Part shown: one piece after another, positions 9,641 through 20,984 of the stretch
Layout of the letters: each line of letters starts with the position of its first letter
Position numbering within the stretch: the first letter of the stretch is position 1
Origin: Candidatus Omnitrophota bacterium
GTDB taxonomy: Bacteria > Omnitrophota > Gorgyraeia > Gygaellales > Profunditerraquicolaceae
Direction: 5' to 3'
Length of the DNA stretch: 32,806 nt
Assembly (NCBI GenBank): GCA_903852325.1
Contig: CAINQO010000040.1
Location: 1 to 32,806 of the forward strand
Program-made: the position numbers and the translations under genes
The notes under the pieces: model-generated
Told to the model about the DNA's origin: nothing
Seen by the model: only the letters and a program-made list of their open reading frames with translations
Databases searched by the model: none

Positions 9641-9717
9641 GCTCCTGGCGTTAAATGGAATCACCCGGCGTCTAATGGAGTTACGCCGGTGTGGCCCTGT
9701 GGCCGATGCGCCGGTAA
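9641..9717 (+). repeat. Structured repeat, copy A (upstream of macB)
   Basis: Lies between the adaptor gene and macB. Outer stem 9645-9651 with 9708-9714 (7 pairs, two of them G-T). Inside are a hairpin 9667-9671/9683-9687 with the 11-base loop ctaatggagtt, extended by C/G pairs with one bulged C, and a small GGCC-ctgt-GGCC hairpin (9693-9704). The whole folds like a three-way junction. It matches the first module of copy C at 20453-20522 in layout and loop sequence, but with different bases in the stems. It lacks the second module seen in copies B and C. No ribosome-binding site separates it from macB, whose ATG is 9 bases past its end. Confidence 0.75.
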
Positions 9718-19214: not shown

Positions 19215-19311
19215 CAGTGGTAGCACCTGGCGCTTAATGGTGTTGCGCCAGTTCACCCAGGAGGGTGACACCCGGCCTTCCGTTAGGCCGGGGCGGCTCG
19301 CCACGTGGCGG
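19215..19311 (+). repeat. Structured repeat, copy B (leader of gcvT)
   Basis: Begins with CAGTGG and CACC as copy C does. Stem 1: CTGGCGC 19227-19233 with GCGCCAG 19245-19251, 11-base loop ttaatggtgtt. Stem 2: TCACCC 19253-19258 with GGGTGA 19263-19268, loop agga. Stem 3: CCCGGCCT 19271-19278 with AGGCCGGG 19285-19292, 6-base loop. A perfect 12-base palindrome CGCCACGTGGCG (19299-19310) ends it. Unlike copies A and C, its first hairpin carries no nested second hairpin. Compared with copy C, stem 2 changes A-T to G-C and stem 3 changes CC/GG to TT/AA, each kept paired. Confidence 0.78.
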
Positions 19312-20436: not shown

Positions 20437-20566
20437 CAGTGGTTGACTACACCTGCTGCCTAATGGAATCACCCAACGCCTAGAGGTGTTGCGTTGGTGT
20501 GGCCTTCTGGCCGATGCGGCAGTTCGCCCAGAAAGGGCGACACTTGGCCTACCTTTAGGCCAAGGT
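20437..20566 (+). repeat. Structured repeat, copy C (between gcvT and gcvH)
   Basis: The largest copy. After CAGTGG (20437-20442) and CACC (20450-20453) comes an outer stem CTGCTGC 20453-20459 with GCGGCAG 20516-20522. It encloses AACGC 20475-20479 with GCGTT 20491-20495 (11-base loop ctagaggtgtt, extended by C/G pairs) and GGCC-ttct-GGCC (20501-20512). Two further hairpins follow: TCGCCC 20524-20529 with GGGCGA 20535-20540, and CTTGGCCT 20543-20550 with AGGCCAAG 20557-20564. It therefore joins the module of copy A to the last two hairpins of copy B. The gcvH ribosome site begins 16 bases after its end. Confidence 0.8.
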
Positions 20567-20594
20567 GGATGTGTCCCCATACAAAGGAGCTGAA

Positions 20595-20984
20595 ATGAAT
20601 GTGCCGGGAAATCTACTTTATACCAAGGACCATGAATGGGCGCGGATAGAGGGTAAGACTGCTTATGTCGGGATCACCGATTACGCCCAGCATTCCCTGG
20701 GAGATATTACTTTTGTCGATCTGCCTAAAGCAGGAGAGGAGCTTAAGCAGTCCTCTTTTTGCGCGACGGTGGAGTCGGTGAAAGCGGCTTCGGATGTTTA
20801 CGCGCCTTTATCCGGAAAAGTTACCGGGGTAAATTCAAAGCTGGCGCAGAATCCTGAGCTGATTAACCAGTCCCCGTATGACCAGGGATATTTCTTTATG
20901 ATGGAGTTTTCCAATGAGGCAGAAAAAGCCAAACTGATGGATGCCCCGGCATACCAGAAATATGTGGAAGGATTAGCGGAATGA
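20595..20984 (+). CDS. gcvH: Glycine cleavage system H protein
   Basis: A 129-residue protein. The ATG at 20595 was chosen for the strong AAAGGAG (20582-20588) before it and because it gives a normal-length H protein; an earlier ATG at 20565 would use sequence directly abutting the repeat. The lipoyl attachment lysine is K63 in VESVKAASDV, followed by YAPLSGKV. The start (YTKDHEWARIEGKTAYVGIT) is typical of the family. H-protein carries the lipoyl arm between the P, T and L proteins. It must be lipoylated, which fits the lipM- and lipA-like genes downstream. Its stop overlaps the gcvPA start (ATGA). Confidence 0.96.
   Translation: MNVPGNLLYTKDHEWARIEGKTAYVGITDYAQHSLGDITFVDLPKAGEELKQSSFCATVESVKAASDVYAPLSGKVTGVNSKLAQNPELINQSPYDQGYFFMMEFSNEAEKAKLMDAPAYQKYVEGLAE

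Follow-up and report, generated by a model that had tools for sequence, protein, structure and literature searches.

The window analysed here, meaning the whole 32,806-nucleotide stretch, corresponds to contig C40 in a MAG of 1.63 Mb, whose nearest named relatives are Candidatus Omnitrophota. It carries three copies of a hairpin repeat of ~47 nt, which spreads through the genomes of one genus of uncultured Omnitrophota. Copy A lies between HlyD-like and MacB-like genes, copy B upstream of gcvT, and copy C between gcvT and gcvH, all gene names having been read from translations (Table 1). Copy B is simple, as both direct reading and a covariance model match confirm, whereas A and C share a more elaborate order, in which an outer stem leads into the left-hand portion of a loop, TAAATGGAAT or CTAATGGAAT, after which come a complete core hairpin, a GGCC-NNNN-GGCC hairpin, GAT, and a closing arm. 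The original prediction had drawn this same contrast, placed A and C at coordinates that proved base-exact, and read both as an outer stem with a second complete unit in its loop, a reading that sequence, homology, and covariation now confirm. Most likely, the nested hairpin in the window arose through a unit landing inside the loop of an older copy.

Table 1. Hairpin elements in the window and the translation start 3' of copy C.
Feature	Positions	Strand	Basis or remarks
Copy A, entire nested element	9645-9714	+	outer arms 9645-9651 and 9708-9714
Copy A, inner core hairpin (hp1), CACCCGGCGT-CTAATGGAGTT-ACGCCGGTG	9662-9691	+	covariance model match 9661-9693, 50.1 bits; covariation pairs
Copy A, inner hp2, GGCC-CTGT-GGCC	9693-9704	+	followed by GAT 9705-9707
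Copy B, simple core hairpin, loop TTAATGGTGTT	19223-19255	+	model match 47.5 bits; ssDNA fold
Copy B, second hairpin, TCACCC-AGGA-GGGTGA	19253-19268	+	sequence reading; fold
Copy B, third hairpin, CACCCGGCC...GGCCGGGG	19269-19293	+	sequence reading; fold
Copy C, entire nested element	20453-20522	+	outer arms 20453-20459 and 20516-20522
Copy C, inner core hairpin, CACCCAACGC-CTAGAGGTGTT-GCGTTGGTG	20470-20499	+	model match 20469-20501, 45.9 bits; covariation pairs
Copy C, inner hp2, GGCC-TTCT-GGCC	20501-20512	+	followed by GAT 20513-20515
Copy C, two additional hairpins, TCGCCC-AGAAA-GGGCGA and CACTTGGCC...GGCCAAGGTG	20524-20567	+	entire composite found again on contig C82
gcvH Shine-Dalgarno AAGGAG (20584-20589) and ATG (20595-20597)	20584-20597	+	3' of copy C; gene call from translation

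Folded as single-stranded DNA, the plus strands of copies A and C both have the nested fold as their minimum (-16.7 kcal/mol, z -2.9, equalled by 2 of 200 shuffles for A; -15.4 kcal/mol, z -1.7, equalled by 10 of 200 for C). Folding energy alone is no proof of nesting, since RNA parameters favor a different fold in the stretch around copy A. The nested structure is instead proven by homology and covariation. Across the five nested copies of the genome that contains the window (A, C, and one each on contigs C33, C82, and C48), all 100 of the 100 positions scored over 20 pairs are standard pairs; all three stems keep every pair, and the compensatory changes extend to the outer stem, which holds three of the six pairs with double-sided changes. 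The counts are small, as they come from five sequences; the covariation score is 0.39 compared to 0.21 in shuffles, none of 500 shuffles scored as high, and sliding the partners by 1-3 columns gives at most 0.11.

Each unit is 47-49 nt in length and comprises the core hairpin hp1 plus the short second hairpin hp2, with hp1 composed of CACC, a stem with a bulged C, an 11-12 nt loop of the type TTA..GG.[AG]TT, and GGTG. When the copies in the genome were collected, as had been proposed, ~30 core hairpins came to light, and five of these are nested. A covariance model built for the core from 16 seeds gave 30 matches at E < 0.003, far above chance. The core is found in all 27 genomes of the genus, with 1 to 59 matches each; outside the genus, seven of the eight remaining genomes of the family have it, as does a minority beyond the family. 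Watson-Crick pairing holds for 598 of the 616 stem pairs in 88 distinct copies; the stems vary (CCGGCG, CTGGCG, CCAACG, CCCGCG), the loop type TTA..GG.[AG]TT is conserved, and ten dispersed copies in G019 have identical cores. Neither the window nor six element loci matched an Rfam family, and one core pattern used in a search for viral carriers gave no exact match. As is the case for REP sequences, this is a short palindrome with many dispersed extragenic copies (~30 in the genome of the window, termed G000, and 59 in G019), and we regard the hairpins as a new family of REP-like mobile hairpins. A second subfamily can be observed at L043, L046, L047, and L050 of G000, where core hairpins are followed by a TACTTCCTCCTGAAGTAGATAAAAGTCAAT tail with no start codon after it.

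The original prediction also held that empty sites should be sought in related genomes, and these were found at A, B, and C as well as elsewhere. At site A, no unit is present in the relatives compared: 16 leader sequences inspected by eye lack it, and a model scan of 17 other loci found none. For the gcvT-gcvH region, for which the relatives compared are not all of the same genus, a model scan of 30 relatives (243 kb) found no unit at sites B or C, its one marginal match (E 0.04) lying away from both; ~29 sequences were compared and empty for site C and ~24 for site B. The sister genomes G019 and G020, which are ~80-90% identical over the compared loci, differ at seven sites where the unit is present in G019 and absent in G020, and have it in common at three (the tuf, L207, and L208 leaders). 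One site is simple in G020 (L290) and nested in G019 (L201), reading CCACCCCGCGCTTATAAGGAATTGCGCGGGTGTG versus CTACCCCGCGCTTAGCGAG[GCACCCGACGC...GCGC]AAATTGCGCGGGTGTT, with the inserted unit bracketed. Among the rpsF leaders of 27 genomes, the site is empty in G020, G004, G007, and others, simple in G019, G006, G016, and G012, and nested, as judged by eye, in G009 and G021. Two outcomes would have told against the predicted landing of an element in an older copy's loop, namely nested forms only and conserved synteny with no movement. Simple and nested forms coexist, even at the same site, and synteny reveals that copies come and go. Presence and absence at orthologous sites combined with identical dispersed copies are the marks of a mobile element, and it is probable that the hairpins form a mobile, non-autonomous family that resembles REPs in both size and copy number, with some units sitting inside the loops of older units. 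The inner unit was presumably gained rather than lost because the simple form is commoner, a polarity that is read from the forms and not from a dated tree.

Nesting recurs in G019, where it was recognized by eye at 5 of 30 loci (L197, L198, L201, L203, and L219). Counting was done by eye because an automatic detector that required flawless outer arms with a length of 6 or more overlooked nested copies containing G.T pairs. Furthermore, copy C and the copy on C82 have an entire composite of ~125 nt in common despite lying at unrelated genes, and therefore composites are copied too. The junctions that were read have at most 1-3 ambiguous bases and no constant target-site duplication, and the unit is not sharply bounded at its 5' end. 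As the insertion point is GGAAT^TGCGC in the nested copies of G000 and precedes AATTG in G019, one target rule does not fit all insertions. A single target motif was likewise rejected, as an AGGA-type motif follows the leader and riboswitch copies but not the nested copies of G000, L055, or L058.

Simple copies lie mostly on the sense strand, immediately 5' of a Shine-Dalgarno. In 400 kb of G020 chosen regardless of the element, 21 of 22 matches are in sense-strand leaders and none is antisense. A leader test consisting of hairpin, Shine-Dalgarno, and start codon, which 3.4% of random positions pass, is passed by 21 of 30 matches in G019 and by 10 of 29 in G000, where one is antisense; in both genomes, many of the failures are copies that are nested, clustered, close to tRNA genes, or followed by a short ORF. 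The Shine-Dalgarno begins 11-15 nt past hp1 in nearly all of 18 copies with upstream room, defined from crude gene calls (L211 and L220 were misassigned) as at least 40 nt free upstream or an upstream ORF on the opposite strand. This spacing is constant despite the upstream room, so a lack of room does not explain it, and the comparison of G019 with G020 shows the Shine-Dalgarno already present at empty sites. No report of palindromes abutting Shine-Dalgarno sequences, or of this hairpin family, was found in the part of the literature that was searched. A second palindrome of the CCTGCC...GGCAGG type (CTGCC...GGCAG) sits directly before the Shine-Dalgarno in rpsF leaders (L227, L230, L236, and L239) and an argC leader (L253). 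At the pth-rpsF junction (L192, L059, and L060), the upstream pth reads into the element and stops at a TAA or TAG in the element's loop.

Units also occupy other structured sites. In contig C74 of G000 (~48.6-48.9 kb; L034 1455-1685), a cobalamin riboswitch (RF00174, 63 bits) hosts hp1 and hp2 in a variable hairpin loop, which measures 59 nt versus 9 nt in the consensus. At L058 of G013, around 1400-1660, the element lies in the loop of a TTTTTCCCCAAGCGCCGGTGGCTGGGGAAAAA palindrome, an uninterrupted copy of which adjoins. Units adjoin tRNA genes as well. At L055 of G021 (1328-1610), a duplicated 3' piece of tRNA-Met, located between tRNA-Met and tRNA-Val, is split by the element at GGTCCGG^GGTTCGAG with zero bases lost or gained; insertion inside a tRNA gene was considered here and rejected, as tRNA-Met itself is intact.

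The sense-only position and the fixed 11-15 nt spacing could also be expected if hp1-hp2 before the Shine-Dalgarno were a functional RNA leader, selected for an effect upon translation or mRNA stability and spread passively by recombination or conversion. The rpsF copies of G006, G016, and G019, which occupy the same place with stems that are different yet paired, are consistent with such a role, as are the leaders that G019 and G020 have in common. However, most of the compared sites are empty in close relatives, and therefore no gene needs the unit. Stem mismatches comprise 6 G.T versus 9 A.C, which is not the G.T excess that RNA-level selection tends to give, copies are also found by tRNA genes and in a riboswitch loop, and nesting is left unexplained. 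An RNA-level role in leaders is possible, but with the G.T excess absent and so many sites empty, a required function is disfavored, and we consider a functional RNA leader to be an improbable explanation. Growth by duplication, which the original prediction had offered beside mobility, does occur locally, as seen in tandem copies (L066, L070, and L024/L035), but it cannot explain sites that are empty in one genome and occupied in another. Nor does a local tandem duplication, with one arm rearranged around the copy, account for the nested copies of G000, in which the inner and outer stem sequences differ and the hp2 belonging to the inner unit is of a different type; the pre-insertion site has an intact loop, and the element is also found in the loops of unrelated hairpins. 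Consequently, we attach very little credence to nesting by local duplication.

Insertion into a pre-existing loop is thus the favored reading, and it raises the question of the mover. The unit is presumably moved by an enzyme acting in trans, which would recognize the folded strand of the unit and insert this strand into a leader or a loop. Hairpin loops and positions just 5' of Shine-Dalgarno sequences would be preferred targets, or possibly only such landings survive, with others being selected against. A unit inside the loop of an older unit gives the form seen in A and C.

The original prediction had pointed to a Y1 (IS200/REP-type) transposase moving a folded single strand, and a Y1_Tnp gene does exist in G000, although it is cut by the end of contig C30, leaving its 3' flank outside the contig. 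Y1 genes are also encoded by 49 of 58 relatives, most of which have several. Other features are similarly compatible with a RAYT/REP system proper, in which a Y1 transposase recognizes the hairpin as ssDNA and moves it: the unit is an imperfect palindrome with a bulge, and insertion without clear duplication is usual for the Y1 class, as is well established (PMC2817692). The expected link to the core hairpin did not emerge at the inspected loci. When 48 Y1 loci across the clade were scanned with flanks of ±1.5 kb or ±2.5 kb, the best core matches scored 14.1 and 11.6 bits (E 0.15 and 0.74), neither of which is convincing, and at these 48 loci no transposase was found flanked by two inverted repeat copies, the arrangement in which RAYTs are reported always to occur (PMC2817692). 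Several Y1 genes (L298, L299, L301, L305, and L309, in G019, G020, G009, and G015) are instead bordered on both sides by GGGGAC...GTCCCC palindromes, which are probably the Y1 genes' own repeat family. GTAG is also rare upstream, occurring within 12 nt in 7 of 88 copies; CGTC is found upstream in 2 of 79 copies and GACG downstream in 0 of 79. GTAG does occur downstream in 15 of 79 copies, within or adjoining hp2. We therefore consider a RAYT/REP system unlikely. A tentative alternative, which we also hold to be doubtful, is that units target the Shine-Dalgarno as such (AAGGAG or the complementary sequence), which would place them in sense leaders, while a liking for their own GGA-type loop would result in self-insertion; the mover would then be an enzyme not yet tied to such repeats, or an RNA form. 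The GGGGAC...GTCCCC palindromes also sit in leaders (L113 and the L210 site in G020).

The features of the family are reminiscent of several known systems. REP/BIME/REPIN sequences with their RAYTs (PMC2817692, PMC3733652, PMC3116915) are, like the unit, imperfect palindromes (20-40 nt) that are dispersed and extragenic, with compensatory stem changes and presence/absence between relatives. Unlike REPs, the unit lacks a GTAG/CGTC tag, no REP-flanked transposase was found, and it is inserted into its own loop; its sense-only position ahead of the Shine-Dalgarno also sets it apart from REPs, which have been reported chiefly 3' of genes. The clusters inspected (L066, L070, L024/L035) are direct rather than alternating, as distinct from BIMEs. 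REPs within palindromes have been reported in Anabaena variabilis, Thermomicrobium roseum, and Halothiobacillus neapolitanus (PMC3733652), so a hairpin within a hairpin is as such not new. Yeast mitochondrial GC clusters (GC42, PMC4478555) and fungal double-hairpin elements are short mobile hairpins with the same double-hairpin anatomy, and for GC clusters both free-standing and fused forms are found at a single homologous site (PMC4478555). However, they are organellar and AG-flanked, and no sequence relation is claimed. The hairpin elements of sponge mitochondria (PMC2800124) are likewise lineage-specific hairpins in intergenic DNA, theirs also being found in rRNA loops, but they are mitochondrial, reside in AT-rich contexts, and have no Shine-Dalgarno link. 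MITEs of the RUP, NEMIS, and ERIC class share with the unit a non-autonomous, intergenic, and foldable nature as well as transcription with their neighbours, but they span 70-300 nt versus 47-49 nt, and terminal inverted repeats with duplication were not recognized in the unit. The GGGGAC palindromes bordering the Y1 genes of the genus resemble those of TIRYT/TIRtron elements (PMC3733652; GGGGWSAS motifs), and these TIRtron-like palindromes are a repeat family other than hp1.

Short palindromic repeats are common in bacteria, whereas a unit inside a unit with a before/after state at the same gene is rare. It is this self-nesting, together with the adjacency to the Shine-Dalgarno, that makes the family of interest in a largely uncultured host phylum. 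Core genes such as rpsF and tuf have the family right next to their ribosome-binding sites, and its movement therefore adds structure to 5' leaders. It also makes both the landing-site choice and the mover of short hairpins testable. Units can themselves be interrupted: at L294 (3323) and L280 (9615) of G020, the 3' arm of a core hairpin is broken by a GCCTGCCTGCCGGCAGG palindrome, another repeat inserted into it.
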